From: a virus
Direction: 5' to 3' (one strand)
DNA length: 30,402 bases
IMG/VR virus record: IMGVR_UViG_3300044634_001939
Location: 1-30,402 of that record
Part shown: piece by piece, positions 4,989 to 25,542 of the stretch
Layout: every line of letters starts with the position of its first letter
How positions within the stretch are numbered: position 1 is the stretch's first letter
The notes under the pieces: generated by a model
What the model was told of the DNA's origin: nothing
Databases searched by the model: none
What the model saw: the letters and a program-made list of their open reading frames with translations, nothing else
Translations under genes and position numbers: made by a program

Positions 4989-5606
4989 TTAGTGGATCCA
5001 GTGCTGAGGAACCATTATCTTTTCACCACTTTTTACTAAGTGAGCAGTGTGATGATATGGTGGTGATGGAGGGAAAACAATAATACTTCCTGCTTTTGGC
5101 TTTACTGCAAATGTATAATTTGTGTCTTTTTCTGCAAGATCAAAATCTGACGGAGGTCTTGCTCCTGTTAATATTCCTCCTGGAGAAGCAATTGTAAAAG
5201 ATATCTCTCCACCTTCGTAGTCATCGTTAAGATACATTACAAAAGAAACCTTAAGTCTTTCATCACCCTCTTGCTGATCAAAGTGTGCGCCCATAAATGT
5301 TCCTGGCTGATACTTCTTAATTGGATACTGAGGAAATAACTTTGGCTCATCTGTAATCCCTTGAGCCTTTGCATAATCTCTTGCAACATCGTCAAATGCT
5401 TTTTCTAAAGTCTTATAGATATAGTCATTTCCCTCTGAAGGAGCAATTGTCTTGTCGGTTCCATACACGTAGTGCTGACCACTACAAGCCATCCACTCTC
5501 CCCACTCATCTTTATTATCATTTTCAATTGCGTCAACAAGTTTCTTTGGGTCTTCAATTACGTTTGTGTAATAATAAACCTTCTCTTCAAGTATTTCTCT
5601 ATCCAT
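4989..5606 (-). CDS. 2OG-Fe(II) oxygenase, prolyl 4-hydroxylase-like (1)
   Basis: 205 aa with the double-stranded beta-helix core of 2-oxoglutarate/Fe(II) dioxygenases of the prolyl 4-hydroxylase type. Iron ligands are H108-F-D110 and H186. The 2OG-binding basic position, ten residues after the last His, is K196 where Arg is usual. Between them lies the signature strand YLNDDYEGGEISF (125-137), then PKAGSIIVFPP. The frame uses an ATG preceded by AAGGAG directly after the stop of the previous oxygenase (11-base gap). It is last in a run of five oxygenases starting at 8559. Expected chemistry is hydroxylation coupled to succinate and CO2 release; the substrate is unknown. Confidence 0.9.
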   Translation of the reverse strand: MDREILEEKVYYYTNVIEDPKKLVDAIENDNKDEWGEWMACSGQHYVYGTDKTIAPSEGNDYIYKTLEKAFDDVARDYAKAQGITDEPKLFPQYPIKKYQPGTFMGAHFDQQEGDERLKVSFVMYLNDDYEGGEISFTIASPGGILTGARPPSDFDLAEKDTNYTFAVKPKAGSIIVFPPSPPYHHTAHLVKSGEKIMVPQHWIH

Positions 5607-5617
5607 AGTATTTCTCC

Positions 5618-6283
5618 TTAGTATTTATTATTTTCATACCAACCTCTAACTTTTATAAATCCAACAGTTACATATCTTATTGGACTATTTTTTCCTACAG
5701 GTCTTACACCATGCTCATATTCTTCTGTTCCTGGAAAAATAAGCAATGTCTTTGGTGCTGGTCTCAAATCAGATTCTGATTTGTTTTCAAAGAATAATGT
5801 TCCATCTTTATAGTCATCATTAATGTACAAGATAGCAGCATATCTTATTGATGGGTCAGTGTGCTGGTCTGTATGAGACTTTAGTTCAACTCCTTCTTGC
5901 ATTCTTTGCAATGTTCCAAACCCAGCAAGTTCTAGAGATGGATCTGAAAGAGCAATTAAATTACCAAGTCTTCTTTGTAGAGTAACAGTGATTGGCTCAT
6001 GAACAATGTTCAGGTTCTTGTCTTGCCATCCTTGAGTAATCTCAAACTTGCCTTCAGCAACCAGATTGTCAACGTCGTCTCTTCCAAATTTTTCCATGCA
6101 GAATCTAGCAAGATTTTTTGTATATTCTATGCCCCAGTCTGCTTCTGTAGCGTTATTGATTATTTGCCAAATTGTTTCTAACTCTTCATCCGATATAAAG
6201 TTTTTAATAGCAAGAACTTGGTCGTGCCAAACCTCTATCTCATAATTAGCATCCACAAATTCTTTCTCTAAGAAAATTTCCAT
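5618..6283 (-). CDS. 2OG-Fe(II) oxygenase, prolyl 4-hydroxylase-like (2)
   Basis: 221 aa from the ATG at 6283. A longer frame begins at 6313 but overlaps the previous gene, whereas the ATG at 6283 sits 7 bases after GGAGA and just past the upstream TAA. Ligands: H137-T-D139, H191 and R203. The core contains YINDDYKDGTLFF and TLLIFPGTEEYEHGV. This copy has a longer loop after the distal His (PVGKNSPIRY). The N-terminal half (residues 20-100) is not shared closely with its neighbours, which suggests a different substrate within the same fold. Soluble, no signal peptide. Confidence 0.88.
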   Translation of the reverse strand: MEIFLEKEFVDANYEIEVWHDQVLAIKNFISDEELETIWQIINNATEADWGIEYTKNLARFCMEKFGRDDVDNLVAEGKFEITQGWQDKNLNIVHEPITVTLQRRLGNLIALSDPSLELAGFGTLQRMQEGVELKSHTDQHTDPSIRYAAILYINDDYKDGTLFFENKSESDLRPAPKTLLIFPGTEEYEHGVRPVGKNSPIRYVTVGFIKVRGWYENNKY

Positions 6284-6284
6284 T

Positions 6285-7028
6285 TTAGTCTCCAACCTTA
6301 TACTTGTTGCCATTTTTATCTAATTTGTATCCTTGTTTTAATAACTCTTGCCATTCTGCTCTTTCAATTTCTTGCTTTGCCCTTGTCTCTTTCATCTCTG
6401 CTGCCCAAGCGTCTCGTACTTCTTGTGGGTAATCAGATTCTTCCCTATCGTCCCAGAAAGATCCTATGGTATATCTTACTCCGCTTTCTATTAAGGAGAC
6501 TTCGTGCATATTATTAAATCCCCCGTCAAAAACAGCAAGCATTCCTACCTGTGGTTTAATCTCTATGCTTTGATCTGGAAACCTAAGAAGCCCACCTTCA
6601 AAATCATCATTAAGATATAAGAATCCAGCGTAGCGACTTCTTGTAAATGCTCCAGAGTTTCCGTGCTCATCCGTGTTATCTGAGTGAATTCTTGCATAGG
6701 CTCCTGGCTCCCACTTTTGTGTGTGATACCCAATCTTAGATATAATCTTTGGATCAAGATCGTGAACTGATGCTATTGCCTCTGGCATCATTTTTTCAAT
6801 GTCTGAAAAGATTGTTGGGATAAGGCCAGCATCTAACACTTCTTGATCGTTGTCTTGTGGAAGGACAGAAGAGTATGACTCATAAAAAGATATTGGCATC
6901 CATGAAATCTTTCCATTGTCTGCTTGTGCATCAAGGGCCTGTATCATTTTTTGACAATCTTCTTTACTTATAAAGTTTTCATAAACAACAATATCTTTTG
7001 TTATTCTTTTTTTATTATTTAAATTCAT
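6285..7028 (-). CDS. 2OG-Fe(II) oxygenase, prolyl 4-hydroxylase-like (3)
   Basis: 247 aa from the ATG at 7028, chosen because it forms an ATGA overlap with the upstream stop and follows AGGAGAGG; the longer frame from 7115 would overlap the previous gene by 91 bases. Ligands: H115-S-D117, H175 and R185, the classical HxD...H...R set. The core includes GFLYLNDDFEGGLLRF and VGMLAVFDGG. A C-terminal extension (about 195-247), rich in Glu, Lys and Arg and probably helical, is absent from the other copies. Function: hydroxylase by family; substrate unknown. Confidence 0.9.
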   Translation of the reverse strand: MNLNNKKRITKDIVVYENFISKEDCQKMIQALDAQADNGKISWMPISFYESYSSVLPQDNDQEVLDAGLIPTIFSDIEKMMPEAIASVHDLDPKIISKIGYHTQKWEPGAYARIHSDNTDEHGNSGAFTRSRYAGFLYLNDDFEGGLLRFPDQSIEIKPQVGMLAVFDGGFNNMHEVSLIESGVRYTIGSFWDDREESDYPQEVRDAWAAEMKETRAKQEIERAEWQELLKQGYKLDKNGNKYKVGD

Positions 7029-7888
7029 TTTATTCTGTTTACCTCTCCTGCACTTTTTCTTGGCGGAATGCCAGCCCAAAAGTTTTTTATAATTTCTGTT
7101 TGCATTTCTTGCCACACTTCTTTTCCAAAATCATTTTCTTTGTCAATCCATTCTTGAGAAGCATCTTCGTACTTCATCCAGTACATTCTGGCAATATACT
7201 TATTTTCTTTTCTTGGAACCATAACCCCGTGTAGGTAAACTTTGCCATCCTTAGTTAGTATGTCTGGGTGACCTGAAGGAAAAACTAAAACGTCTCCAGC
7301 CTCTGGCTTATACATATAAGCATCTTTGCCAACAACAAAATCAATTTCTCCTCCCTCATAATCATCATTAAAGTATGTTAATGCCGTTATTACAAACTTG
7401 TTTCCTGGGCTTTTAATTGGCTCTCTTACATAATCAGAGTGGTAGACCAATCCTATGGAGTCTTCAATGTCTGTTCTATATCTTGCAATTGAAGGCCCAT
7501 TACTAGTCCAAAGTTTACGAGTTGCACCATCGTGATCTTTTACTAATGCTTCCTCATCAAACTCAACATTATGTTTGGCTATATAATCTTTTGTTGCTAA
7601 ATGAAAATTTTTAAAAACTTCTAAAATTGCAAGTTTTTGTTCTTCTTGTTTTGGGCTTGCAGTTTCTACTTCTTTTTCTATGTAATCCATAGTCATCGTG
7701 TGTGGATGATCTTTAAATAAAGGATTAATGTATTGACCAAAAGAAGCCCACTGGGTCCATGGACTAAACAAGCCTTCTTCGTCTTCTTCTTTTAACAAAG
7801 ATGTTGTTTTAGATATATCTTTAAAAAGATTTTTATATACAAATATATTTGGATATATCTCAATATGCTCTACAGGCTGTGTTGTCAT
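7025..7888 (-). CDS. 2OG-Fe(II) oxygenase, prolyl 4-hydroxylase-like (4)
   Basis: 287 aa from the ATG at 7888, which overlaps the upstream stop as ATGA and has AGGAGA nine bases before it; the longer frame from 7924 lacks such support. Ligands: H150-S-D152 and H220, with K230 (or R234) at the 2OG-binding position. Core strands: ALTYFNDDYEGGEIDF and AGDVLVFPSGHPD. It is the longest oxygenase here, with a helical segment at about 65-115 and a 50-residue C-terminal tail after the core. It is second in the five-gene oxygenase operon. Confidence 0.88.
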   Translation of the reverse strand: MTTQPVEHIEIYPNIFVYKNLFKDISKTTSLLKEEDEEGLFSPWTQWASFGQYINPLFKDHPHTMTMDYIEKEVETASPKQEEQKLAILEVFKNFHLATKDYIAKHNVEFDEEALVKDHDGATRKLWTSNGPSIARYRTDIEDSIGLVYHSDYVREPIKSPGNKFVITALTYFNDDYEGGEIDFVVGKDAYMYKPEAGDVLVFPSGHPDILTKDGKVYLHGVMVPRKENKYIARMYWMKYEDASQEWIDKENDFGKEVWQEMQTEIIKNFWAGIPPRKSAGEVNRIK

Positions 7889-8559
7889 GGTTGTCTTTCT
7901 CCTGTGTGCTTTGTTATCTCCCAAAAGAAAGGACAGGTGTATCTAATACCACTTTTAATTTCTGTTACTCCGTGAATATAATTTTTATCCCCTGGGAAAA
8001 AATATGCTGCACCCTTTTTAGGCTTAAACTGAATTCCTTGTAATGGGAAATATAGTTCTCCACCTTCATAGTCTTCATTTAAATAAAACAGACTTGAAAG
8101 ATCGTAGTTTGGAAAATCATTTGGAAGACCTGCATCTGGTCCTTCATGAAGTTCTTTATCTGCATGCGGATTTTGCAACTGTCCTGGTAGCCATCTAACA
8201 ATTGTAGGTCCTGTAGGTATAACTTCTACCTTGTAAAAATCTTCAACAATCGGCTTTAGTCTTTCAAATAGTCCTGCAACAACTGGGGCTATTTCTGGAT
8301 TGTTTTTATTTAAAGTAGGATATGTTGCTACTCTGTCTTTCCAATAATTAGAATCATAAACAACAGTTCCATTTTCATTAACGTGGCTTTCTGTTACATC
8401 CCAAATTGTTAAAGACTTTGCAGCCTTTTCTAAAAAGTCCATCTCTTCTTGAGTCATAAAATTTTCTAACTCAACAATCATATCTTTGCTATTGCCAAAC
8501 CACCCAGAAGGTGTCATAGAAGGCTTTCTAACAACAACAGATGCTTCTGATTTATCCAT
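7885..8559 (-). CDS. 2OG-Fe(II) oxygenase, prolyl 4-hydroxylase-like (5)
   Basis: 224 aa. Ligands: H132-A-D134, H196 and R206, a complete HxD...H...R set. Core: LFYLNEDYEGGELYF, PKKGAAYFFPGD and YIHGVTEIKSGIRY. There is no Shine-Dalgarno sequence before the ATG at 8559; instead TGA-TATAAT ends exactly six bases upstream, so the message should be leaderless. A 7-bp palindrome adjoins that promoter. It heads an operon of five oxygenases running to 4989, with ATGA overlaps or gaps of at most 11 bases. Confidence 0.9.
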   Translation of the reverse strand: MDKSEASVVVRKPSMTPSGWFGNSKDMIVELENFMTQEEMDFLEKAAKSLTIWDVTESHVNENGTVVYDSNYWKDRVATYPTLNKNNPEIAPVVAGLFERLKPIVEDFYKVEVIPTGPTIVRWLPGQLQNPHADKELHEGPDAGLPNDFPNYDLSSLFYLNEDYEGGELYFPLQGIQFKPKKGAAYFFPGDKNYIHGVTEIKSGIRYTCPFFWEITKHTGERQP

Positions 8560-8574: not shown

Positions 8575-8591
8575 TAGGGTTTATACCCTAT
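8574..8591. promoter_or_regulatory. Palindrome abutting the oxygenase-operon promoter
   Basis: ATAGGGT-TTAT-ACCCTAT, a perfect 7-bp inverted repeat with a 4-base centre. It ends three bases from the -10 hexamer and covers the stop codon of the upstream gene. This is the spacer/-35 position, as expected for a repressor or activator site; it could also form an RNA hairpin at the 3' end of the upstream message. Confidence 0.4.
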
Positions 8592-9043
8592 AATTCCCTC
8601 TCAATCTCTAGTTGTTTTAAAAACCTTTCTGGATTGAATCTCCAGTTATCTTTTGCAAAAGAAGTGACAATTTTAATGCAGACATTCTCATAGTCTTCCT
8701 TGTCTAACTTATCCTTCAAAGAGTGCAATGCTTCAACTGTATCTATATAGTTTTGCCTTACAAATGATGGATCTCCTGCGTGGTTTCTTTTTAAAACCTT
8801 TGTATTTATTTTTCCAGATGGCTCATACATAGATACAGTTAAATAGTCTTTTGCAAAGCCAGCATCTTGATACATTTCATATCCTTCGTTAGCCTGCTTT
8901 TCATTATCAAAAGATATTATTGATCTAACTGGAGACTCTCCATCTCTTGAGACTGTAATTATATAATGACTAATTTTTCCATCTTTTGCATTTTGAATAT
9001 AGTTATTTACCATATCATCATGGTTTGGCCTTGTGTCGTTCAT
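8588..9043 (-). CDS. Unknown protein, 151 aa
   Basis: Not recognised. The start ATG overlaps the upstream stop (ATGA), so it is probably translationally coupled. The N-terminal half has a small alpha/beta look with a HYIITVSRDGESPVRSIISF hairpin; the C-terminal half is charged and helical (about 95-151, many Lys/Glu/Asp). No cysteines or signal peptide were seen. It is last in the operon that begins at 11919 and lies between two oxygenase blocks, so a role in the same process is possible but unsupported by motif. Confidence 0.75.
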   Translation of the reverse strand: MNDTRPNHDDMVNNYIQNAKDGKISHYIITVSRDGESPVRSIISFDNEKQANEGYEMYQDAGFAKDYLTVSMYEPSGKINTKVLKRNHAGDPSFVRQNYIDTVEALHSLKDKLDKEDYENVCIKIVTSFAKDNWRFNPERFLKQLEIEREL

Positions 9044-9753
9044 TGTGCACCAGTATTATCATTAACGTAAAGTTTTAATGTTTTTGTTTCATGCTGTCCT
9101 CGTGTTTTTCCATTTTCATCAACAGCATCTCTATACCAATCAGTCCATTGCCCAGAAGAGTTTAGCACTTGTGCTGCTTCTCCATAGGCAATATTGGACT
9201 CTGTTCTAGACCTGTCTTCATCTTTATAATTAACAATTTCTATAGCACTATTATTTAAATTAGTCAAAGATATTGGAATGATTGTTGCTAATGGCGTTCC
9301 AGCCTTTATTGTTACTTCTTTATTTGCTGATTTTGCCTTAATCGCTAAAGGAAGCGGATTATCAAAAAAGGAAGTGCTAATTAGATTTGACATTGTCTCA
9401 AAATCTTCATTAAAATAGTTTACTGGATTTATGCTAAGTATGCTTACTTCTTGTTCAGTTTTAAAAACTAACCCAGTGTTAAGGCTAAGAGAAGATTGCC
9501 CTCTTCCAGTATAAGACCCTTCTGGTGCAGAAACAATCTTAATGTGGTCTTGTGTTTGGTCATTTATCCCATCCCAGATAAAAGAAATATCCTCTAAGCA
9601 TGAAAGACTCCATCCAATAACATTTGCTTGTGTTACAGGAAAACATCTATATGCATGATTTTCTGATGTAGCATCCATCCAATCTCTTTTGATAGACATG
9701 GGAGAAATTACAAAAGAGTTGCCAGGCATCTTCTCAACTGAGATGTTGATCAC
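9040..9753 (-). CDS. Beta-rich phage protein, distant relative of the 255-aa neighbour (DUF6065-like)
   Basis: 237 aa, starting with GTG inside a TAGTG stop/start overlap with the upstream oxygenase. Visible blocks are YRCFPVTQANVIGWSLSC (N-terminal third), a TGLVFKTEQEVSIL strand, a NPVNYFNEDF segment and VTIKAGTPLATIIPI. The last two line up with TPMNRFDLPF and GTIPAGTPYLQVLPF in the protein at 10445-11212, so the two are probably divergent paralogues. The pattern recalls the cupin-like DUF6065 family; I hold that name loosely. Each paralogue directly follows a closely related oxygenase, which suggests a functional pair. Biochemical role unknown. Confidence 0.7.
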   Translation of the reverse strand: MINISVEKMPGNSFVISPMSIKRDWMDATSENHAYRCFPVTQANVIGWSLSCLEDISFIWDGINDQTQDHIKIVSAPEGSYTGRGQSSLSLNTGLVFKTEQEVSILSINPVNYFNEDFETMSNLISTSFFDNPLPLAIKAKSANKEVTIKAGTPLATIIPISLTNLNNSAIEIVNYKDEDRSRTESNIAYGEAAQVLNSSGQWTDWYRDAVDENGKTRGQHETKTLKLYVNDNTGAQ

Positions 9754-10436
9754 TATTCTTTATCCCACTTTGGGTCATACATATCTGGTGTATGGTACTT
9801 CTTGCTGTAGTCAAGCATAGTAACAATTGAATACTTTGTTCCAGAGTGTACTGGCATTGCTTGATGAGGATACATGAAGTTTGATGGGAAAATGTAAAGA
9901 TCTCCAGCCTTTGGCTTGATATTCAGACCTTGCAGTCTAAAATACAACTCTCCACCCTCATAGTCATCATTAACATATGCAACAAGTGAGACCGTGCAAT
10001 TGTATGAGTATCCGTGATCGTGGTGTTCTTTAAAGTGTTGACCTGGACCATACTTAATAAAATTAAAGGCTTCCCAATATTTTAATGGCATAATATTGTA
10101 ATCTCTTCTGTAATCTTCTACAGCAGCAGCCTGTGCGTCATATATATCTTGCCATAAAGATTGTAGTTTTAGCGACTCTTCGCTTTTGTCTAATTCTATG
10201 TCACTTTTCTTAAATTTAAAATCTACGCAGTCTCTATAGTCTGGCATCAATTGTTGATATCCTACGTATGCTGGCATCCAATGGTATCTTTTGCCTTCTG
10301 CTGATAATTCTCCATACCCAGCAACAGAGCCAAGAGCATTTTCAAGTCTGTTTATTACATCAAACTCGTTTTTTATAACGTTTCTGTAACACACAATTCC
10401 ATTTCCAAGAATTTCTTTTTCTGTCCAAGTTTGCAT
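9753..10436 (-). CDS. 2OG-Fe(II) oxygenase, prolyl 4-hydroxylase-like (6)
   Basis: 227 aa. Ligands: H138-H-D140, H191 and K201 (Lys replaces the usual Arg). Core: SLVAYVNDDYEGGELYF, KPKAGDLYIFPSNFMYPH. It closely resembles the oxygenase at 11212-11919, sharing YxEAFNFxKY before the HxD motif, YNCTVS after it and PSNxxYxH at the distal His. AGGAAA seven bases before the ATG fixes the start, 8 bases after the upstream stop. It is followed directly by the GTG-started beta-rich protein. Confidence 0.9.
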   Translation of the reverse strand: MQTWTEKEILGNGIVCYRNVIKNEFDVINRLENALGSVAGYGELSAEGKRYHWMPAYVGYQQLMPDYRDCVDFKFKKSDIELDKSEESLKLQSLWQDIYDAQAAAVEDYRRDYNIMPLKYWEAFNFIKYGPGQHFKEHHDHGYSYNCTVSLVAYVNDDYEGGELYFRLQGLNIKPKAGDLYIFPSNFMYPHQAMPVHSGTKYSIVTMLDYSKKYHTPDMYDPKWDKE

Positions 10437-10444
10437 TTTGTTTC

Positions 10445-11212
10445 CTATCTATACTCTCGTCTTGACCATACTTTATTTTTATATACCCCGCCATCTGGTT
10501 GACGGTAAAAGTTTGCGTTATCTACCATTTTACCATACATATCAGATTGACTTAAAATTTCTATTTCGTGTTCCCAGTTTTCTCTTTTAAATGGCAGCAC
10601 CTGAAGATATGGAGTTCCTGCTGGGATTGTTCCTTCCCATCCATCTGCAATAAAAAATGGAAAACTTCCAAGAAGATGCACCTTGTCGCTGTCAACAATT
10701 CCAGTAGTGTTCATAAATGGAAGATCAAATCTGTTCATTGGTGTCATAAACAGAGCACTATAACCTTCTGGCAACTCTAGCCCCCAGTCAGAACTCCAAG
10801 CAAAATGATGTGTATAAAATCCTTTTGGATGTTCAAACTGTGGCATTGGTGGTCTCTGGGTGCAAAAGTCTTTATACTTAGGATCAGCGACTGTTACATT
10901 AATTACTCCGTAAGAATTTTTGGCAAATGTTAGATCGCATGGGGTTTTAAACACATACCCTGTTGAAAAAGCATCCATGATTGCTGGGCAGGCTTTCCAG
11001 GTTGGAATCTTTCCGTAATCATCTGTTGTTCCTTCTTTAGGAAATGGACAAACCTCTTTTGGGGCCTTGTAGTATTCTCCATTTGGCATTTTTGCAAATC
11101 TGTCTGCATCCTTATACCAATCTGGAATTTCTTTTTGTGTTGGAACAGGAACAGAAACGCTATCTTTATTTAGCCATGGTCTGAATGATCGGAAAATAGC
11201 AACAAGAGACAC
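10445..11212 (-). CDS. Beta-rich phage protein (DUF6065-like), paralogue of the 237-aa protein
   Basis: 255 aa, starting with GTG in a TAGTG overlap with the upstream oxygenase. The N-terminus is IFRSFRPWLNKDSV, then a Pro/Lys-rich stretch with IPDWYKDADRF and a PTWKACPAIMDAF block. The rest is beta-rich: TGYVFKTPCDLTF, WGLELPEGYSALFMTPMNRF, and GWEGTIPAGTPYLQVLPF. The strand order suggests a cupin/jelly-roll-like fold. It is similar in order, not in detail, to the protein at 9040-9753. I cannot assign a reaction; a role beside the oxygenases is inferred only from repeated adjacency. Confidence 0.72.
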   Translation of the reverse strand: MSLVAIFRSFRPWLNKDSVSVPVPTQKEIPDWYKDADRFAKMPNGEYYKAPKEVCPFPKEGTTDDYGKIPTWKACPAIMDAFSTGYVFKTPCDLTFAKNSYGVINVTVADPKYKDFCTQRPPMPQFEHPKGFYTHHFAWSSDWGLELPEGYSALFMTPMNRFDLPFMNTTGIVDSDKVHLLGSFPFFIADGWEGTIPAGTPYLQVLPFKRENWEHEIEILSQSDMYGKMVDNANFYRQPDGGVYKNKVWSRREYR

Positions 11213-11919
11213 TACTTGTGTCCCAGTTCATTAATGTCTGTCATTACGACAACACAATATTTTGCTCCCTCTTTCATTGGTAAGGATGCATGCTCATAGA
11301 TATAGTTAGATGGGCAAATTAATATATCTCCTACCTTTGGAGTATGAGTATATCCGTCAAGTCGTGGGAACCTAATTTCTCCACCTTCATAGTCTTCATT
11401 TATATATATTACTGCGGATACAGTGCAGTTGTACATTGGACCGTGATCTGCATGAATATTAAAGTGAGTTCCTTCTCCTTCGTATTTTACAAAGTTAAAT
11501 GCTTCATAGTATACAACATTTATTCCCCAGTACCTGGCATAGTCATCAACACAAAACTTTAACTTTTGATAGATCTCTTCATGCAAGTCAATAAGTTCGG
11601 CATTATGCTCATCTCTTGGTCCCAAGTTTTCTTGCTTAAATCTAAAGTCTACAGCGTCTCTAGCCTTCTTAATTGGCACATCTGAATTAGTTACTTTTGC
11701 CTCTGACCATTTGTATTTGCCATTTCCACCCAAATTAGACTCTAATGTTTTTATATATCTTTCGGAATCTTCTTTTGAAAACACATTTCTGTACAGATTA
11801 ATTCCTAATGCTGGATTTTCAACCAGTATGTTATTCCCAATAGTTTTTGATGGATACCTATTTAAGGCTGTTTCAGACCTATCTTTTGTAAACCACACAT
11901 TGTTATTTTCATCATACAT
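11212..11919 (-). CDS. 2OG-Fe(II) oxygenase, prolyl 4-hydroxylase-like (7)
   Basis: 235 aa. Ligands: H156-A-D158, H210 and K220. Core: SAVIYINEDYEGGEIRF, KVGDILICPSNYIYEH. It has an extra N-terminal stretch (about 1-40) compared with its close relative at 9753-10436. Start: AAGGG seven bases before the ATG. It heads the tightly overlapping block oxygenase/beta-protein/oxygenase/beta-protein/unknown that runs to 8588. Hydroxylase by family; substrate unknown. Confidence 0.9.
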   Translation of the reverse strand: MYDENNNVWFTKDRSETALNRYPSKTIGNNILVENPALGINLYRNVFSKEDSERYIKTLESNLGGNGKYKWSEAKVTNSDVPIKKARDAVDFRFKQENLGPRDEHNAELIDLHEEIYQKLKFCVDDYARYWGINVVYYEAFNFVKYEGEGTHFNIHADHGPMYNCTVSAVIYINEDYEGGEIRFPRLDGYTHTPKVGDILICPSNYIYEHASLPMKEGAKYCVVVMTDINELGHK

Positions 11920-11938: not shown

Positions 11939-11968
11939 TGTATAGTTTAAAAATTAAACTTCTGTAAA
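11939..11968 (-). promoter_or_regulatory. Possible promoter before the oxygenase at 11212-11919
   Basis: TTTACA (11963-11968) and TATACA (11939-11944) with an 18-base spacer on the minus strand, overlapping the end of the preceding gene. It lacks the TGN extension seen elsewhere, so it is a weaker call. Confidence 0.3.
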
Positions 11969-12391
11969 TCTTGAGCCATCCCAGCCATGAGTTTCACCTG
12001 CAGCAACTGCTTGGTCTGCTGGAACCTTAACCAAAATAACTTCTCCTTGAAATCTTTCAGACATAAAATCTGACAGAACAGAAGAATTGCTTAAAACAAA
12101 ATTTGCAATTATTACATTGTCAGAAAGTAAAGAAAATCTTTTATTCTCATCCCAGATATCAAGTACTACAGAATCTTCAGGTCGATTAACTCCTCCAGAA
12201 AATGAAACTCCATCCCAAGTAGATCCAAGTCTTGCGCTATCTCTAAAAGATGTAGTCTCCATTCCAAATGGAGGCGGAGTTTTTGCTACAGCACTTTCAA
12301 CAATAGCGTTCCTGTCTAAATTTTCATACGGAGCGATAGTTCTAAGAACATCCCAAGATGTCTCATTTTTCTTTGATAAAACTGCGTACAT
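11954..12391 (-). CDS. Small WDG-motif phage protein, paralogue of the 21102-21560 product
   Basis: 145 aa. Not in a family I can name, but related to the 152-aa protein at 21102-21560: both begin MYAxxxKxxxxWDVxxT, have a middle S(F)xxSAxxGxxWDGxxFSGG segment, and end near an acidic, beta-rich region with a second WDG motif (HGWDGSRF here). Start: AAGGAG five bases before the ATG, with a TGA-TATACT promoter box upstream. It follows the FFP-tailed fibre gene and precedes an oxygenase block, as its paralogue also precedes an oxygenase. Small tail-associated or fibre-assembly roles are possible. Confidence 0.75.
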   Translation of the reverse strand: MYAVLSKKNETSWDVLRTIAPYENLDRNAIVESAVAKTPPPFGMETTSFRDSARLGSTWDGVSFSGGVNRPEDSVVLDIWDENKRFSLLSDNVIIANFVLSNSSVLSDFMSERFQGEVILVKVPADQAVAAGETHGWDGSRFTEV

Positions 12392-12474: not shown

Positions 12475-13437
12475 TTAACAAGTACAATTTGAGCAAGAGC
12501 ATAGCCAGCAATAGTTAGCGAAGCATCCTCCAACTCCAACTCCAACTCCAACACCTACTCCAACACCTACTCCAACGAAGAATGGTGGGAAGAATGGGAA
12601 GAATGGAAAGAACGGGAAGTAAGGTGGGAAGAATGGGAAGAATGGGAAGAATGGGAAGAATGGTGGGAAGAATGGAAAGAATGGAAAGAACGGGAAGAAC
12701 GGTGGGAAGAATGGGAAGAACGGGAAGTAAGGGAAAAATGGTGGGAAGAATGGGAAGAATGGGAAGAATGGGAAGAATGGGAAAAACGGCGGGAAGAATG
12801 GAGGAGTGGTAACGCTATTAGATGGATTAGAATAGTCTCCAAACCCATTACCATTTTCTGCCCGTACCTGATAGGTCTGTGCAGTTGTTGCTTCTTGTGC
12901 TACTGAAGAAGATAAAGATGCTGATGTTCCAGTTTTAGCATCAGATGAAGTATATCTGTAAAGAGTAATTGGCTTTCCACCAGTTGCTGGTGCTGACCAA
13001 GTAATTGTATCGTTTTGTGACCCTGCTGTAACTGATGCAGTTACTGTTCCAACCTTGTTTGGTACTGATGTAACAGTAAGCGCATCAGTAGCAGTTGATG
13101 CTGCTGATGTTCCAGAAGCATTTGTTGCAGTTACAGTAAATGTATAAGATGCTGCAGACTTAAGTCCACCTATAACAATTGGGGATGATGCTCCTGCCTG
13201 AGTTACAGTAGTTCCAGTTGAACCATCTCCTCCTGCACCTGTTGCAACAAATGTTGCAGATACTGTGTAAGAAGTTGCTGGTGGAGAACCTGCTGGCAAT
13301 TCAAAAGTAACTGATGCTGCTGCACTATTAAATGGTCTATTTGTACCAACGTCAGTTCTGCCAACATTGATTGGTGGCTTTGGCTCCAAGAAGTCATTTG
13401 CTGCTTGGGACTTTTTTCCTACTTTTTTATTTGCCAT
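12475..13437 (-). CDS. Fibronectin-III protein with Phe-Phe-Pro repeats, Val-Gly run and Cys-rich tail
   Basis: 320 aa. After a Lys-rich start (MANKKVGKKSQAANDF), residues about 37-210 form two fibronectin type III-like domains (SYTFTVTATNASGTSAAS; TYQVRAENGNGFGDYSNPS). Residues 210-287 are built almost wholly of [11 protein letters not shown] units with a few Tyr. Residues 288-303 are alternating Val-Gly, and the last 16 residues, from CFANYCWLCSCSNCTC, hold six cysteines. No signal peptide. AAAGGGG nine bases before the ATG supports the start. It follows the 824-aa fibre gene. A tail-tip or adhesive role is inferred; the repeat tract is extreme and unlike common fibre repeats. A similar FFP block ends the 669-aa fibre. 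Confidence 0.85.
   Translation of the reverse strand: MANKKVGKKSQAANDFLEPKPPINVGRTDVGTNRPFNSAAASVTFELPAGSPPATSYTVSATFVATGAGGDGSTGTTVTQAGASSPIVIGGLKSAASYTFTVTATNASGTSAASTATDALTVTSVPNKVGTVTASVTAGSQNDTITWSAPATGGKPITLYRYTSSDAKTGTSASLSSSVAQEATTAQTYQVRAENGNGFGDYSNPSNSVTTPPFFPPFFPFFPFFPFFPFFPPFFPYFPFFPFFPPFFPFFPFFPFFPPFFPFFPFFPFFPPYFPFFPFFPFFPPFFVGVGVGVGVGVGVGVGGCFANYCWLCSCSNCTC
12531..12576 (-). repeat. CCAACT/CCTACT repeat encoding Val-Gly
   Basis: Tandem six-base units (CAACTC/CACCTA variants on the plus strand) encode an alternating Val-Gly run. The period keeps the frame, so unit gain or loss would change length without frameshift. Confidence 0.8.
12577..12809 (-). repeat. GGGAAGAATG-type repeat encoding Phe-Phe-Pro units
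   Basis: About 230 bases of near-repeats of GGGAAGAAT and GGTGGGAAGAA on the plus strand encode PFF and PPFF units on the minus strand. Small substitutions give occasional Tyr. All units are multiples of three. Confidence 0.85.
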
Positions 13438-13466: not shown

Positions 13467-15941
13467 TTACTTTAGGTCTCCGAAGAGAACCCATGTGTTT
13501 GCTGCTCTCTTAAAGAGAGTTGCAGATGACCAAGTTGTACGAAGTGTTGATCCTGGAGTAGAGTTTAATGTTACTCCTGCGGATGCTGCAATTGCAACTG
13601 GTCCTGTACTTGTTTGAAGAACATCAATAGAAGTTCCGATTGGGAAGTTTAGTGTTGAATCTGCAGGAATTGTAACATTTACTGCTGAAGTACCACTATG
13701 TGCAACTTCGATTAAAGAGTCTCTTTCTGTAAGTGATGAAAGTGTGTACGCTGCTGTTTTTTGGATAATAGGAGTTCTCGAAGGAGTTCCTTCTTTTGTC
13801 TGTGTACCATCTGTAAACGCTACTCCTGCTGCTGCAACTGTTACTGTTCCAGTAAATGTTGGAGAAGCAATTGGGGCTTTTAGGTCAAGTGCTGTCTGTG
13901 TGGCAGTTGAAATTGGCTTGTTAGTATCTGTTGTATTATCAACATTACCAAGACCAACCATAGTTTTTGTTATACCAGATACTGTTCCAGTAAATGTTGG
14001 AGAATTAAGTCCTGCAATTGCAGAATAGGTTGTTCCATCATTTGTGAACTCCCAAGAATCAGTAGACTCATTCCAACGAAGTTGAACATCAGATGAGTCT
14101 CCACGCTTAATCTTTATTCCTGCATTCTCTGTTGGAGTACCAGTAGTAAAGTTGCTGTTTAGGTCGATAATGTTATCAGCCAATGAGATTGTTTCGCTGT
14201 TTACAGTTGTAGTTGTTCCGCTTACTGTTAGGTTTCCACCAACAACAAGGTTTCCATTTACTTCTGCATTATCATTAAGATAAACTTTTCCTGTACCGTT
14301 TCCAGATAGAGATAGGTCTGTATTTAGAGTATTGCTTGATACAGAATCAGCCTTTATTCCATTGCTAAATGCAATTCCGTTTCCATCATTGCTTGAGAAG
14401 TTGGCTCCTGCTTCAACAACTAAAGGTCCCTTTATGTTAACAGAACCAGCACCTGTTGGATCTAGTTCAATGTTACCACTTCCGCTTGTTCTTAATGCCA
14501 AGTTTTCATTAGCATCTGCAGTGATAACAACGTCACCTGCGTCAGTTTGAAGAACCTTTTGTCCGTTAACGTACAAGGATCCTGGACCAACATAAATATC
14601 TCTCCACATCTTTGTAGGAGAGCCCAAGTCAAATGTAATATCTGTTGCTGGTAGTACATGTCCTGTGGTGACAGTACCTGTAAATGTTGGTGAAGCAAGT
14701 GGTGACTTTAGGTCAAGCGCTGTTTGTGTAGCAGTTGAAACTGGCTTATTAGCGTCTGAAGTATTGTCAACATTTCCAAGACCTACTGAAGACTTTGTAA
14801 GTGCTGCTACTGCAGTTGAAATCTTTGTGTCTGCTGCTGTTCCTGCTGCTGTAATTGCGTCTGCTTCTGCTTGATCAGCATATGCTGTAGTTGCAATTGT
14901 TGCATCAATATCAAATCTTAACTCTGCTGCATTCCAATCAATTCCTGTTCCTGCAAGTGCTGATTGATCTACTGACGCTTCATCAAGTGCGTCTTCAAGA
15001 TCTGAGACTGTCACAAGAAGTGAAGTATCTGCAATTCCGTGTACGCTTGTTGTTGCATCAGCGTGTAGTCCAAGTGCTGTAGAAGCCGCTGAATTTGCTG
15101 CTACAATATCTGCTGCTGTAGCAAGTTCTGCAGTATCTGCAATTCCATGTACGTTTGTTGTAAGATCATTGTGTGCTTCAATTGCGTCTGTTAGTGCTTC
15201 TGCAAGACCAGCATCTGTTACAAGAAGAGAAGTGTCTGCAATTCCGTGTACATTTTCTGTAGAACTGTTGTGATCACTTAGATTTGTTAGTGATGCTTTT
15301 AGTGCAAGAGTGTTTGTTAATTCTGAAGCAAAGTTTTCATTATTTCCTAGTGCTGCTGCTAACTCGTCTAATGTATCTAGCAGTCCTGGTGCGCCATTTA
15401 CTAAATTGTTTACCTTTGTCTGAACAAATTCTGTTGTTGCAATTTGTGTTGTATTTGTTAGTGAAGATGCTGTTGGTGCTGTTGGAACACCAGTTAATGA
15501 TGGTGATGCTAATGGTGCCTTAAGATCAAGGGCTTCTTGTGCTGCTGTTGATACTGGCTTATTAGCATCTGTTGTATTATCAACATTGCCAAGACCGACC
15601 ATTGACTTTGTAACTCCGCCAACTGTTCCTGTAAATGTAGGATTGTTGATTGGAGCCTTTAGTGCAAGATTGTTTGCTGTTGTTGTAAAGAACGCTGGAT
15701 CATCTCCAAGGGCTGCTGCTAACTCGTTTAATGTGTCCATAGTTCCTGGAGCACTATCAATAATTGCTGCTAGTTCTGCTGCGTTAGCAAAGTACTGTAG
15801 GGCAGACCATGTTGATGATCCGTTACCCATCTTAAACTTACTTGTATCAGTTTCAAAACCGATTTCACCTGCTGCTAGAATTGGGTTTGCAGCCGTCCAT
15901 TGTGCTGCAGTACCTCTGCGCTGTTGCATTCTTGTTGCCAT
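13467..15941 (-). CDS. Long tail fibre, 824 aa
   Basis: The N-terminus (RRGTAAQWTAANPILAAGE) is the attachment-type module found at the start of many phage fibres (Mtd N-terminal-like). Then come repeats: MVGLGNVDNTTDANKPVST-type units recur four times, VHGIADTSLLVT-type units at least three times, and LLDTLDELAAALG units twice. A central segment (FDLGSPTKMWRDIYVG, then GNLTVSGTTTTVNSETISL) is common in phage structural proteins. The last 100 residues form a beta-sandwich ending NTWVLFGDLK, also found in the 669-aa fibre. AAGGAG lies ten bases before the ATG. It most likely binds the host surface or connects to a tip protein; the small fibronectin/FFP protein downstream is a candidate partner. 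Confidence 0.92.
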   Translation of the reverse strand: MATRMQQRRGTAAQWTAANPILAAGEIGFETDTSKFKMGNGSSTWSALQYFANAAELAAIIDSAPGTMDTLNELAAALGDDPAFFTTTANNLALKAPINNPTFTGTVGGVTKSMVGLGNVDNTTDANKPVSTAAQEALDLKAPLASPSLTGVPTAPTASSLTNTTQIATTEFVQTKVNNLVNGAPGLLDTLDELAAALGNNENFASELTNTLALKASLTNLSDHNSSTENVHGIADTSLLVTDAGLAEALTDAIEAHNDLTTNVHGIADTAELATAADIVAANSAASTALGLHADATTSVHGIADTSLLVTVSDLEDALDEASVDQSALAGTGIDWNAAELRFDIDATIATTAYADQAEADAITAAGTAADTKISTAVAALTKSSVGLGNVDNTSDANKPVSTATQTALDLKSPLASPTFTGTVTTGHVLPATDITFDLGSPTKMWRDIYVGPGSLYVNGQKVLQTDAGDVVITADANENLALRTSGSGNIELDPTGAGSVNIKGPLVVEAGANFSSNDGNGIAFSNGIKADSVSSNTLNTDLSLSGNGTGKVYLNDNAEVNGNLVVGGNLTVSGTTTTVNSETISLADNIIDLNSNFTTGTPTENAGIKIKRGDSSDVQLRWNESTDSWEFTNDGTTYSAIAGLNSPTFTGTVSGITKTMVGLGNVDNTTDTNKPISTATQTALDLKAPIASPTFTGTVTVAAAGVAFTDGTQTKEGTPSRTPIIQKTAAYTLSSLTERDSLIEVAHSGTSAVNVTIPADSTLNFPIGTSIDVLQTSTGPVAIAASAGVTLNSTPGSTLRTTWSSATLFKRAANTWVLFGDLK

Positions 15942-20272: not shown

Positions 20273-20869
20273 TCATCGTAGCCAACTGACTACAGAGTAT
20301 CTTATTCCCTCTGTTACTGGAATGACTGAGTGGTTATATACATAGTTTGATGGAAATATTAAAAACTCGTTTGCTACTGGCTTGTAGGTTATGTCAAATC
20401 TTGGAAATGTAATTTCTCCACCAGAGTAGTTATCGTTTAAATAATAGACAGTAGAGATTCTTCTATGGTACTTATGGTTATCATCTATATGGTTAACTAC
20501 CTTTTGTCCTGGACCATACTTTAAAATACCATAAGAATCGTGCCATTCTGTGCCTATATTATATTCTTTTTTGTAGTCTAACTCTAAATCTTTAAATCCC
20601 AACAAAAAAGTGTTTGATAGTTTTGCTTTAAATTCATAGTACTCATGCATGGTATTGTTAACAATATGATCTTGATACTCAATATACAAAGAATCGGTAT
20701 CTCTTATAGTCTTTTCTGGAACATCTTGTCCGTTTATTATTGCCGTTGCTGGATACCAGGCATCAAAGTTTTTAGATACGCCCTTTTCAATTTCATCTAT
20801 AAGAGACTCATGATCATCTATTACGTCTGAATATATTACAATTCCTGGTGCTAGTGTTCTTTTTTTCAT
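20273..20869 (-). CDS. 2OG-Fe(II) oxygenase, prolyl 4-hydroxylase-like (8)
   Basis: 198 aa from the ATG at 20869, which sits in a TAATG overlap with the zinc-ribbon gene and follows AGGAAA; the longer frame from 20944 would run through the upstream gene. Ligands: H127-I-D129, H180 and R190. Core: STVYYLNDNYSGGEITF, FLIFPSNYVYNHSVIPV. Its approach to the HxD motif (GILKYGPGQ) is close to the 227- and 235-aa oxygenases. It is last in the operon WDG protein, zinc ribbon, oxygenase. Confidence 0.9.
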   Translation of the reverse strand: MKKRTLAPGIVIYSDVIDDHESLIDEIEKGVSKNFDAWYPATAIINGQDVPEKTIRDTDSLYIEYQDHIVNNTMHEYYEFKAKLSNTFLLGFKDLELDYKKEYNIGTEWHDSYGILKYGPGQKVVNHIDDNHKYHRRISTVYYLNDNYSGGEITFPRFDITYKPVANEFLIFPSNYVYNHSVIPVTEGIRYSVVSWLR

Positions 20870-21096
20870 TACCATTTTCCTAACGGGCAAGTTGCCTTTT
20901 CTAGTTTTGACTTTAAACTCATTATACACCCACATTTTTTGCACTGATTTGTTGTTTTAATAAATTCTGGACATACATGACAAATAGAAAGCCTTTGAAT
21001 AGATATGCTCTCGTCTTGTACATATTGGTTTGGATCCAGTAAATGCCATGGCCTTGTTTCTCCTAAAGACGACTTCCACTCTTCCCACTTTGACAT
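20869..21096 (-). CDS. Six-cysteine zinc-ribbon-like small protein (1)
   Basis: 75 aa. Cysteines at 39, 42, 52, 55, 57 and 70 form CHVC...QCKKCGC...TCPLGKW, a zinc-ribbon-like knuckle pair ending in GKW at the C-terminus. The N-terminal 35 residues are polar with WHLLDPNQY. The same Cys pattern and end occur in the 81-aa protein at 25543-25788 (DUF6171-like by appearance, name not certain). In both places the next gene is a 2OG-Fe(II) oxygenase, here joined by TAATG. A metal-binding partner or specificity factor is a reasonable inference. Confidence 0.8.
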   Translation of the reverse strand: MSKWEEWKSSLGETRPWHLLDPNQYVQDESISIQRLSICHVCPEFIKTTNQCKKCGCIMSLKSKLEKATCPLGKW

Positions 21097-22256: not shown

Positions 22257-23288
22257 TTAGTGCTGGGGCTTTTCTGTTTGACCCTTAATCCATAGATAGG
22301 TTTTTTCAATTCCTTCTTTTAAGGTCATAGAATAGTCCCAGCCTAATTCTTTTCTTACTAAATCATTCTGAGAGTTTCTTCCTCTAACCCCTAAAGGTCC
22401 TGGGATGTGCATCTTACTTAAAGTCTTTCCTTCAACGCTACAGGCAATATCAACTAACTGATTTATAGTAACCATTTCTTCAGACCCAATATTAACTGGT
22501 CCAGTAAAGTCTGACTTCATAAGCCTTCTTGTTGCCTCTATGCATTCGTCTATATATAGGAATGAACGGGTTTGTTCTCCATCCCCCCAAATTTCTATAA
22601 AGCCATCTGACTGTATAACTTTTCGACACATTGCTGCAGGAGCCTTTTCTTTTCCACCATCCCAAGTTCCTTCTGGTCCATAGATGTTGTGATATCTTGC
22701 AATTGCTACTGGGATCTTATTATTTCTATTAAATGCTAAAAACATTCTCTCACTAAATAGTTTTTCCCACCCATACTCGCTGTCAGGGTCTGCAGGGTAT
22801 GCGTCAGACTCCTTAAGTCCAGGGTTATTTACATCTAACTGCTTATGGTCAGGATACATACAGGCAGAACTTGAATAAAAAATCTTTGTCTTGTTAATAT
22901 CATATTTAGCATTTAATCTTGATTGTGCCCTAAGAAGATTAAGATTTATCAAAGCAGAGTTTTCCATAATTTGAGAATCATTATCTCCAGTAAAGATATA
23001 TCCAGCACCACCCATGTCTGCTGCAAATTGATATATCTCATCAAAAGAAGTTATAACACGATATGGAACTTCATGATAAAAGTTTCCCTGATATCCTTTA
23101 AATTGAATTACTTTTTCAACATTTTCATATACAGATAAATCTCTTTCTATAAATTCATCTGCTTGTGTTTCAGAAAAGTCTGGATGTTTTAAATCAACAC
23201 CACGAACCCAATATCCTTCTGACTTTAAACGCTTTACCATATGACTTCCAATAAAACCGCCTGCCCCTAATACAAGTGCTGTTTTCAT
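22257..23288 (-). CDS. GDP-mannose 3,5-epimerase-like NAD-dependent epimerase
   Basis: 343 aa from the ATG at 23288 (TGATG overlap, AGGAGA eight bases before). Extended short-chain dehydrogenase fold: GAGGFIG (8-14) for NAD, AADMGG at 89-94, SSACMYP with C143, Y172-GWE-K176, FLYIDECI, and HIPGPLGVRGRN. C143, Y172, K176, K215 and R304 match the residues of plant GDP-mannose 3,5-epimerase with a constant offset of two, including the KGGREKAPAA-like and RGRN segments. That enzyme makes GDP-L-galactose and GDP-L-gulose. A roughly 25-residue insertion near 60-85 is unusual. It closes the operon that carries a glycosyltransferase and a methyltransferase. Confidence 0.88.
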   Translation of the reverse strand: MKTALVLGAGGFIGSHMVKRLKSEGYWVRGVDLKHPDFSETQADEFIERDLSVYENVEKVIQFKGYQGNFYHEVPYRVITSFDEIYQFAADMGGAGYIFTGDNDSQIMENSALINLNLLRAQSRLNAKYDINKTKIFYSSSACMYPDHKQLDVNNPGLKESDAYPADPDSEYGWEKLFSERMFLAFNRNNKIPVAIARYHNIYGPEGTWDGGKEKAPAAMCRKVIQSDGFIEIWGDGEQTRSFLYIDECIEATRRLMKSDFTGPVNIGSEEMVTINQLVDIACSVEGKTLSKMHIPGPLGVRGRNSQNDLVRKELGWDYSMTLKEGIEKTYLWIKGQTEKPQH

Positions 23289-23926
23289 CACAATTGTCTC
23301 CTTTTAATTAGTGTCTCTTTCTTTATAAAAAGAGCGTCCCCCCACATTGTACTTCCAATAATAACATACACTGGATAAAAGCCAAAAGGTGCTAAAAATT
23401 CTGACAGGTCGTTAATGCTGCAGTCATTCTTATAAAGACCACCTAGGGCAACCTCAAGCCATAAAGCATCTGCATCTTTGAAAGTCTCAATGCCACCAGA
23501 CAAGACTTTTAGTTCAGCACCCTGGACATCCATTACAACTAGATCAAACTTTCCTAGAGATAATGAGTCCAAAGTTTTTGTTTTTATTTTTATAGGCTGA
23601 GAATCAAATTTAACATCTGGATGCTCTGTCAAATGTAATCCTGGCTCCAATAGGCTAGAACTCATCTTATCATTGCTCGATACCCAAAAATCTACCTCAA
23701 CATCCTGAGTATCTGAAACTAAAGCCTCTATTGCTTTCCAGTTTGGTTCACAAACAAGATACTCTTCCAATCTTTTGTATACTGTTGGGTCTGCTTCAAT
23801 AAAAATTCCACTAGTTATTCCGATATCTTTGTACATTGACAGTTCCTGACCAATATGTGCTCCAACATGAATAACACTTTTTGGTTTTAGCCCATGTATT
23901 CCTAAAACTTGCGCTATATTGTACAT
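23288..23926 (-). CDS. FkbM-family SAM-dependent methyltransferase
   Basis: 212 aa from the ATG at 23926, preceded by GGGAGGAG; the longer frame from 23956 has less support. It overlaps the glycosyltransferase gene by 13 bases. Visible FkbM features: SVIHVGAHIGQE (SAM-binding loop, 17-28), FIEADP (42-47), SSSLLEP, KTLDSL and DLVVMDVQGAELKVLSGG (128-145). FkbM enzymes O-methylate small molecules and sugars. Next to an epimerase and a glycosyltransferase, O-methylation of a transferred sugar is the simplest inference. Confidence 0.9.
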   Translation of the reverse strand: MYNIAQVLGIHGLKPKSVIHVGAHIGQELSMYKDIGITSGIFIEADPTVYKRLEEYLVCEPNWKAIEALVSDTQDVEVDFWVSSNDKMSSSLLEPGLHLTEHPDVKFDSQPIKIKTKTLDSLSLGKFDLVVMDVQGAELKVLSGGIETFKDADALWLEVALGGLYKNDCSINDLSEFLAPFGFYPVYVIIGSTMWGDALFIKKETLIKRRQL

Positions 23927-24959: not shown

Positions 24960-25541
24960 TTACATACTCGCTGTTGGCTCATCTTTTTTGGCACGGATTC
25001 CAGTGTATAGATATTTAGGGCCTTCTGTAAAAAACCAATGGTCTGGTTCTGTATAAAAAAAGAATGCATTAGCAACCAAATTTGTTTCTGGGTTTGGAAA
25101 CTCTTCTCTCCAGTGTTCTTGATCATTACCATAAGACATTACTGCATCATTTTCTTCTGGTTGAAATTTTTCACCTTCAACATAAAAATCCCATGGAGTC
25201 TTGTGAAATATTGTATAGTTTATATGATATGTACAAGCATTATCATCTTTATGCTTCCACAGTCTTGCTTTATCTCCTTCATAAATGCTTATAAGACACC
25301 AAGACGGCAAAAGCGTTTCTGACTCAAACTCTTCTCTTGCTAATGGTAATAGCATTTCATGAAATCTTCTTAGTGGTTCTGTATTTTCTTTATGAGTTCC
25401 GTCCCAAATAGCCCATTGATGTCTTCCAAAACTTTCGTCAAAAGTAGTTTTATCGGTTGCCCACAAATTCATTGCTAAATTTTGCAATGCTTTATGTTCT
25501 TGTTCTGGCAAAACATTTTTTAATAAATATGGTTTTTTCAT
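24960..25541 (-). CDS. 2OG-Fe(II) oxygenase-like protein, divergent (9)
   Basis: 193 aa from the ATG at 25541, just after the zinc-ribbon TAA; the longer frame from 25556 overlaps it. It lacks the NDDYEGGE signature but keeps a plausible metal triad: H97-K-D99 (LWKHKDD) and H143 (QEHWREEF), with an ISIYEGD strand before, YHINYTIFHKTPWDFYV between and LVANAFFFYTEPDHWFF after. The basic 2OG residue is not obvious. It resembles the phytanoyl/procollagen-lysyl branch more than the P4H copies. It lies in an operon with glycosylation genes, unlike the other eight. Confidence 0.68.
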   Translation of the reverse strand: MKKPYLLKNVLPEQEHKALQNLAMNLWATDKTTFDESFGRHQWAIWDGTHKENTEPLRRFHEMLLPLAREEFESETLLPSWCLISIYEGDKARLWKHKDDNACTYHINYTIFHKTPWDFYVEGEKFQPEENDAVMSYGNDQEHWREEFPNPETNLVANAFFFYTEPDHWFFTEGPKYLYTGIRAKKDEPTASM

Positions 25542-25542
25542 T

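Follow-up and report, generated by a model that had tools for sequence, protein, structure and literature searches.

A viral cassette of 2-oxoglutarate oxygenases and DUF6065-type proteins linked to aromatic-proline repeat genes

Chlorella virus and mimivirus, both of which infect eukaryotes, hydroxylate their own repetitive proline-rich or collagen proteins by means of virus-encoded protein hydroxylases, and the bacterial prolyl 4-hydroxylase is known as a single enzyme. In aquatic phages, 2-oxoglutarate (2OG)-Fe(II) oxygenases are common and unexplained genes. Numerous copies are carried by 14 of 16 marine cyanophages, according to the relevant passages of PMC3037559, and cyanophage S-SCSM1 has 24 of them, their viral functions being described in the corresponding part of PMC9602691 as not specifically investigated. 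Where cyanophage and pelagiphage 2OG oxygenases and the associated family phrog_2954 are discussed in the portions consulted of three papers (PMC3037559, PMC11561400, PMC9602691), they are termed auxiliary metabolic genes, and the explanations offered are metabolism, 2OG level or DNA repair; protein modification is mentioned among the general functions of the superfamily. Here we describe a viral sequence of 30,402 nt (IMG/VR record IMGVR_UViG_3300044634_001939, hereafter the window, whose positions serve as coordinates throughout) in which seven divergent 2OG-Fe(II) oxygenases (ox1 to ox7) and two DUF6065-type proteins (dufA and dufB) are encoded together downstream of an FN3 protein with aromatic-proline repeats. 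Across diverse viruses the repeat gene and this cassette predict each other, and we consider it on balance probable that the cassette is a phage operon that would hydroxylate the neighbouring repeat protein, a presumed structural fibre. A preliminary description of the same DNA had seen a tandem two-gene cassette, oxygenase plus beta-rich protein, present twice. These pairs are real, but the picture was incomplete, with five more oxygenases downstream and the repeat-protein gene upstream; the observation was right, the duplication story built on it is doubtful, and the main interest lies outside the coordinates that it covered.

The oxygenase cassette and its repeat gene

All the cassette genes lie on the minus strand. 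The four open reading frames (ORFs) of the preliminary description were verified as ox7 (11212-11919, 235 aa, with the HxD...H...K residues; PF13640, E 3.5e-9), dufB (10445-11212, 255 aa), ox6 (9753-10436, 227 aa, the sister of ox7; PF13640, E 1.3e-15) and dufA (9040-9753, 237 aa). Downstream of dufA, after one small gene and from 8559 down to 4989 on the same strand, follow five further PF13640 oxygenases: ox5 (7885-8559, HxD...H...R, E 3.7e-8), ox4 (7025-7924, E 2.5e-7, absent from the gene orders of some relatives), ox3 (6285-7115, E 2.9e-8), ox2 (5618-6313, E 7.3e-10) and ox1 (4989-5606, E 1.2e-11). Upstream, and directly preceded by a tail-fibre gene (13467-15941), lies the minus-strand gene of a 320-aa FN3 protein (12475-13437; Pfam fn3, E 1.9e-8, two stretches), which has an (F/Y)FP repeat and a Cys-rich C terminus and which its linkage to the cassette makes the candidate substrate. 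Its FFP tract (12577-12804, residues 212-287) consists, over 76 residues, of 44 Phe, 30 Pro and 2 Tyr, encoded by 39 TTC, 5 TTT, 21 CCA, 6 CCG, 3 CCT and 2 TAC codons.

Searches with the window's proteins (the best 80 of 429 stretches in one and the best 80 of at least 592 in another) gave 155 cassette loci, partly from the same contigs, so that locus counts do not stand for independent viruses. The order 7-B-6-A-5-(4)-3-2-1 recurs among them. In 77 loci the sequence extends at least 2.6 kb beyond ox7 on its upstream side, and 73 of these have an FFP gene there; on the contigs of the remaining four (L137, L145, L146, L153) an FFPFFP-type pattern was matched at the DNA level elsewhere, and the reversed control pattern had no match on these contigs. 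The link also holds in the opposite direction. When viral contigs were scanned for the FFP DNA pattern without reference to the cassette, at least 118 loci were found. Setting aside 11 in which no ORF contained the required four or more PFFP-type units, and 26 with less than 3 kb downstream, left 81 that could be assessed. Among the matches listed, a PF13640-type oxygenase is encoded within 3 kb downstream and on the same strand in 79 of these 81, 73 with DUF genes, the two assessable FFP genes without a downstream oxygenase being L202 and L215. Genes with PTPVAP repeats were dropped as a negative control, and the tail-fibre motif VGLGNVDNT used instead, because PTPVAP genes have oxygenase-like neighbours of their own, as described below. 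The tail-fibre motif gave at least 120 stretches, of which 80 had less than 3 kb downstream and were dropped; among the matches listed, only 4 of the remaining 40 have an oxygenase within 3 kb downstream, and over whole contigs the base rate of 2OG genes was 4 in 30 hand-picked control records. The difference between FFP genes and control is strong by row (Fisher p 8e-24) and persists in repeat-masked clusters, both at 60% linkage (19/21 versus 1/6, p 1.4e-3) and at 80% linkage (41/43 versus 2/33, p 1e-16).

Three of the four positive control loci (L521, L535, L549) themselves hold a DUF and oxygenase cassette with an aromatic-proline repeat gene upstream, FN3-like by eye, which is directly adjacent in L535 and L549 and separated by two genes in L521. 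The repeat unit is FFP in L549, PPGFF in L535, and GPPSFF, APPTFF or APPGFF in L521. From these sequences it appears to be the chemistry of the repeat, and not the exact FFP unit, that goes with the cassette. The repeat proteins of L535 (9541-10902) and L549 (2791-4128) end in ILTHNK and are possibly self-processing, their C terminus resembling what we take to be a Hint/intein-type domain.

The eight 2OG oxygenases of the window, ox1 to ox7 and ox8 (20273-20944, minus strand), all score above the PF13640 cut-off (27 bits) and thus belong to the 2OG-Fe(II) oxygenase superfamily. Metal and co-substrate residues are kept in nearly all representatives, a loose HxD...H...K/R pattern (metal triad and distal K/R) being found in 106 of 109 sequences from the eight families and missing in one of 12 for ox6 and two of 22 for ox4; the co-substrate position is Lys in 10/12 ox6 and 10/10 ox7 representatives and Arg in 13/13 of ox8. 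As had been noticed in the preliminary description, ox6 and ox7 are close relatives with common EAFNF, YNCTVS and PSN..Y.H blocks (42% identity over 208 aa, E 5e-45; profile-profile probability 100). In the tree of the eight families they are sisters (support 100/98), with ox8 next (99/96), and each family forms one clade, weakly so for ox6 (59/24). A comparison of the ox6, ox7 and ox8 profiles with the PDB gave bacterial prolyl 4-hydroxylase as the best match of all three (ox6, E 5e-7; ox7, 3itq, E 1.3e-6; ox8, E 2.2e-9), followed mainly by the lysyl hydroxylase LH3, prolyl 3-hydroxylase, PKHD-type enzymes and the prolyl hydroxylases of hypoxia-inducible factor. Because prolyl 4-hydroxylase is their best match among solved structures, prolyl hydroxylation of the repeat is our leading guess, and the seven enzymes may perform several different reactions.

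The PTPVAP genes form a second repeat class. At least 119 loci were found, of which 62 were left after removal of 25 without an FFP-free PTPVAP ORF and 32 that were short. Among the matches listed, only one of the 89 that have 2 kb downstream is accompanied by the cassette, and ox8-type oxygenases are nearby in 26/62 cases (3 kb downstream, no FFP). Another partner is phrog_2954, which occurs, again among the matches listed, in 76/119 PTPVAP loci, always on the same strand, within 1.65 kb and frequently downstream, versus 4/118 FFP loci and 0/120 tail-fibre control stretches. This family, labelled ferrochelatase in PHROGs, looks from its residues like a cryptic 2OG oxygenase, with an HxD[D/N]...HWR pattern in 66 of the 76 proteins and a similarity to 2OG-FeII_Oxy_2 that is weak and below the cut-off (E 0.0068). 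An oxygenase-like neighbour, either ox8-type or phrog_2954, thus accompanies 54/62 PTPVAP genes versus 4/40 controls (p 2e-15 by row; 16/21 versus 1/6 clusters at 60% linkage, p 0.015). Both classes coexist in the window, where the FFP gene goes with ox7-ox1 and a second repeat protein (25821-27830), with PTPVAP repeats and one FFP stretch, goes with a phrog_2954 protein (24960-25556; HxDD...HWR) and, further on, with ox8, a family found near PTPVAP-repeat genes in other viruses; all three genes are on the minus strand. A 347-aa protein of no assigned family (23914-24957), with homologues in 42/119 PTPVAP loci among the matches listed, adjoins an FkbM-type methyltransferase (23288-23956, PF05050).

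Two other minus-strand genes interrupt the region of the cassette and encode proteins without a Pfam family, one of 145 aa between the repeat protein and ox7 (11954-12391) and one of 151 aa between dufA and ox5 (8588-9043). Homologues occur in 92 and 66, respectively, of 157 sequences (the window, L001 and the 155 cassette loci).

Predicted fold of the DUF6065-type proteins

dufA belongs to DUF6065 (PF19541; E 2.7e-26, 92.9 bits versus a cut-off of 26.6 bits), and dufB has no match to PF19541 or to any other Pfam family at E 0.1. Both match phrog_7084 (dufA, E 1e-10; dufB, E 6.5e-33), they align with each other by BLASTP (E 8e-5 over 104 aa) and hhalign (92%, E 7e-7 over 149 columns), and they contain the NPVNYF/TPMNRF and AGTPLATIIPI/AGTPYLQVLPF blocks from which their kinship had been proposed. 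Since dufB is tied to the family through phrog_7084, hhalign and fold, we call it DUF6065-type and not a member of the Pfam family.

AlphaFold (AF2) models, made from alignments of 47 (A) and 45 (B) viral sequences, reached predicted local distance difference test scores of 85.6 for dufA and 90.2 for dufB. In Foldseek searches of the PDB, the best 50 matches listed for dufA were all dUTPases (best E 1.6e-4), and the matches listed for dufB were dUTPases or dCTP deaminases (best E 3.1e-3), a few of them carrying titles of dUTPase-repressor studies. Among the best 50 listed by VIA-align, dufA had its best Z, 11.3, with dUTPases (root-mean-square deviation 5.1 over 125 for 1q5h and 2.4 over 112 for 8hrv) and dufB, 10.2, with the Plasmodium falciparum dUTPase 2y8c (2.5 over 119). 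On these predicted models both proteins have the dUTPase fold, and therefore the different folds for the 237-aa and 255-aa proteins, named in the preliminary description as the outcome that would count against it, are not what was obtained.

dUTPase activity is another matter. DUF6065 as a real dUTPase was rejected, because the fold agrees and the family profile does not (at E 0.1, PF00692 matches nothing in the window), and we regard dufA and dufB, as modelled, as dUTPase-fold proteins rather than demonstrated dUTPases. Links in sequence are weak, dufA matching the white spot syndrome virus dUTPase by profile at E 0.03 and dufB aligning with 12 dUTPases by hhalign at P 0.016 with a probability of only 2.8%. 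In this weak alignment of dufB, a G-I-V-D-S-D stretch (DxD) falls on motif 3 and an AGTP..Q stretch on motif 4, motifs to which we presume the usual dUTPase roles. Among 40 B-type rows (phage, halovirus and bacterial sequences, three of the bacterial proteins being present twice), D176 and Q204 are invariant and D174 is present in 38; in dufA, S and T predominate at the positions that hhalign aligns to them, and one of 47 rows has Q. Motifs 1, 2 and 5 were not recognised by eye in dufB, and dufA has neither the motif-3 DxD nor the motif-4 Q. From these residues, dufB may keep part of a dUTPase-like site that dufA seems to have lost.

For dufA, neither tblastn against the cultured phages nor a scan of genome contigs gave a match; the scan of genome contigs with dufB gave bacterial loci and loci from metagenome-assembled genomes (MAGs). 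DUF6065-type genes are chromosomal in L284-L329, where a small protein, TPR-like by eye, adjoins in L284 and L321. A second, more divergent B-type gene is present in L131, L102, L138, L180, L249 and L250, and such a gene follows ox1 in 9/155 cassette loci, whose orders end in B.

Proposed function, its rivals and the history of the two pairs

Linkage, homology, residues and a predicted fold are what the sequences show; substrate, hydroxylation, virion location and the role of the DUF proteins are inferred from them. In our proposal, both pairs form the 5' portion of an operon for post-translational modification of the neighbouring structural protein. The FFP protein would be a virion fibre or adhesin, and the oxygenases would hydroxylate its FFP repeat, most likely on proline, several enzymes acting at several sites or steps. 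A Phe-Pro rod is very hydrophobic, and hydroxylation could render it soluble, rigid or sticky. The two DUF6065-type proteins would probably be an accessory subunit; as B may keep part of a dUTPase-like site and A seems to have lost it, both might form a mixed oligomer presenting the substrate or binding a ligand, which is the weakest step of the proposal. In a wider form, which we put forward tentatively as possible though short of probable, aquatic phages would carry 'finishing' operons in which batteries of prolyl-hydroxylase-like enzymes and a DUF6065 pair hydroxylate the aromatic-proline or other proline-rich repeats of the phage's own fibres, in a collagen- or mussel-adhesive-like manner, different repeat classes having different oxygenase partners (the cassette for FFP, ox8 and phrog_2954 for PTPVAP).

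Several observations weigh against these proposals. The FFP rows are related, 52/81 falling in one cluster at 60% linkage and 14 at 80%. Six FFP loci are without a nearby oxygenase: for two of them (L185, L274) the contigs encode 6 and 4 elsewhere, and for the other four (L195, L202, L211, L235) the contigs, of 5.5-13.5 kb, encode none. Eight pattern loci without an FFP ORF are mostly without 2OG genes (7/8 contigs). At L474, the fourth positive control locus, oxygenases and a dufA-like gene are present and no repeat gene was seen. For PTPVAP genes, counting PF13640-type oxygenases alone leaves 8/21 versus 1/6 clusters at 60% linkage, which is not significant (p 0.63). Near relatives of ox6/ox8 have no visible proline-repeat neighbour in the cyanophages ACG-2014d, ACG-2014f, S-B64 and P-SSM5, nor in Methylophilales phage Melnitz. 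Finally, DUF6065-type genes have no detected oxygenase within about 6-8 kb in HF2, HRTV-2, HSTV-2 and S-RIM4, nor near them by profiles in 46/46 loci (L284-L329, mostly alphaproteobacterial), nor in 8/9 other MAG loci. Since these genes occur without oxygenases, they are not specific to this job.

Two stronger versions of the proposal were rejected. One is generality to all phage 2OG oxygenases, as in 5/7 cultured phages inspected no proline-repeat gene was seen near the matched oxygenase. The other is DUF6065 as an obligate oxygenase partner, which is ruled out by the haloviruses, S-RIM4, bacteria and MAGs without a nearby detected oxygenase.

The dUTPase-like predicted fold of both DUF proteins and the DxD and Q kept in B also feed a different explanation, in which nucleotides, DNA or metabolites would be the targets of the oxygenases and DUF6065 proteins (base hypermodification, 2OG drain or repair) and the repeat gene would merely co-travel in a host-recognition or hypervariable module. 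Gene neighbourhoods are consistent with it, as a B12-dependent (class II) ribonucleotide reductase adjoins the cassette of the window after ox1, and the lone dufB homologues are near a ribonucleotide reductase in HF2 and S-RIM4 and adjoin thymidylate synthase in HRTV-2 and HSTV-2; so are the guesses published for cyanophage oxygenases, control of 2OG level and DNA repair, in the passages concerned of PMC3037559. Nevertheless, we judge it unlikely, since among solved structures ox6, ox7 and ox8 are nearest to protein prolyl and lysyl hydroxylases and the aromatic-proline linkage persists across differing repeat units and gene orders.

Rather improbable is that the cassette modifies the host surface or sugars with the FFP protein as secretion or targeting partner, or makes from this protein a released peptide like those that are ribosomally synthesized and post-translationally modified (RiPPs). 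Many tailoring enzymes beside a repetitive polypeptide with a Cys-rich C terminus do resemble peptide natural-product operons, ox3 weakly matches YhhC, a cyclophane-peptide 2OG oxygenase (E 0.01 and far below the cut-off), and an epimerase and the FkbM-type methyltransferase are encoded elsewhere in the window. Against this stand the position of the FFP gene directly after a tail-fibre gene and its FN3 domains, frequent in phage virion proteins; moreover, no RiPP-type family reached the cut-off among the proteins scanned, leaders and transporters not having been searched for.

As to the origin of the two pairs, 215 loci with all four genes have the orders 7-B-6-A (203), 7-6-A-B (11) and 6-B-7-A (1), with 7-B-6-A over-sampled because the window's own proteins served as queries for most of the loci. 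A tree built from 20 representatives, 11, 8 and 1 with the respective orders, separates the orders across a single branch and so by itself gives no direction; its midpoint root places 7-6-A-B deeper. When the nine ox7 rows are rooted by ox6, each of the two branches of the first split contains 7-6-A-B (supports 80/77 and 99/97), which makes it the older order by parsimony. The paired layout ox7-B-ox6-A of the window therefore looks derived, and a parsimonious history suggested by these trees would have tandem oxygenases and then tandem DUFs, interleaved later. One contig in a Chitinophagaceae MAG (L281) combines an FFP gene with the order 7-6-A-B-5-4, a possible hint at the host or a misbinned phage.

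In the midpoint-rooted DUF tree, cassette B groups with halovirus and alphaproteobacterial homologues and not with A, which is on a long branch. dufA and dufB are far more diverged from each other than ox6 and ox7, with orthologue identities (B 0.59, A 0.50) not much lower than those of the oxygenases (0.62 and 0.64). A and B as one clade were not rejected by an approximately unbiased (AU) test leaving out S-RIM4, the divergent B row L532 and duplicate alphaproteobacterial rows (p 0.23; p 0.08 without two outlying B rows). The TAGTG junction, described as the same in both pairs, does occur twice in the window but varies across relatives and is no family trait: among the window and the 155 cassette loci the stop of ox7 reads TAGTG 111 times and TAATG 17 times, that of ox6 TAGTG 39 times and TAATG 109 times, other forms being rarer. 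Read at sequence level, it is an ordinary one-base overlap of stop and start. The account of one oxygenase and DUF pair duplicated as a unit and then diverged, without wider significance, can draw on the paralogy of both gene types and on the unrejected A+B clade, but it is disfavoured and, to our mind, the least probable explanation, given 7-6-A-B on both sides of the first ox7 split, the much greater divergence of A from B, the unconserved junction and five further oxygenases in the same conserved operon.

Comparison with cultured phages and known systems

In cyanophage S-SCSM1, a run of four oxygenase genes is followed by two tail-fibre genes, two further genes and another three oxygenase genes, one small gene lying among these last three. 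Its short-tail-fibre gene (L588:4081-5346), between the oxygenase groups, has a proline-containing low-complexity RQPR/FRxP repeat. In S-CAM7, an oxygenase lies three genes after a collagen-like GPPGP gene. The near-reciprocal link between oxygenase set and aromatic-proline repeat replaces 'metabolic reprogramming' with a concrete, checkable substrate, and S-SCSM1, being cultured, offers an oxygenase group around a proline-containing tail-fibre repeat as a place to look. If the wider form of the proposal is true, 2OG oxygenases now counted among auxiliary metabolic genes would in many cases be virion-maturation enzymes. DUF6065, for its part, gains a predicted fold. Searches of the open-licence literature found no DUF6065 paper, nothing relevant for the FFP-repeat motif PFFPFF and, among the papers listed, nothing connecting phage 2OG oxygenases with proline-repeat proteins.

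Among described systems, the protein hydroxylases of Chlorella virus and mimivirus come close in principle, and we know of no DUF6065 pair, multi-oxygenase cassette or FFP repeat in them. The dUTPase/dCTP deaminase superfamily shares its fold with the predicted models of both DUF proteins, B's DxD and Q falling on motifs 3 and 4; the differences are the lack of a PF00692 match and, in A, of the DxD and, in 46/47 rows, of the Q. The oxygenases of cyanophages and pelagiphages (phrog_61), together with phrog_2954, belong to the same PHROG families as those described here and include the seven-oxygenase group of S-SCSM1, but the sections of PMC3037559, PMC11561400 and PMC9602691 that concern them draw no link to proline-repeat structural proteins. 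Bacterial prolyl 4-hydroxylase (PDB 3itq, 5hv0, 5iax) is the best solved match of ox6, ox7 and ox8 and has in common with ox6 and ox7 the Lys at the co-substrate position; by contrast, the viral cassette brings seven paralogues together in one operon beside another candidate substrate, and ox8 has Arg in place of that Lys.

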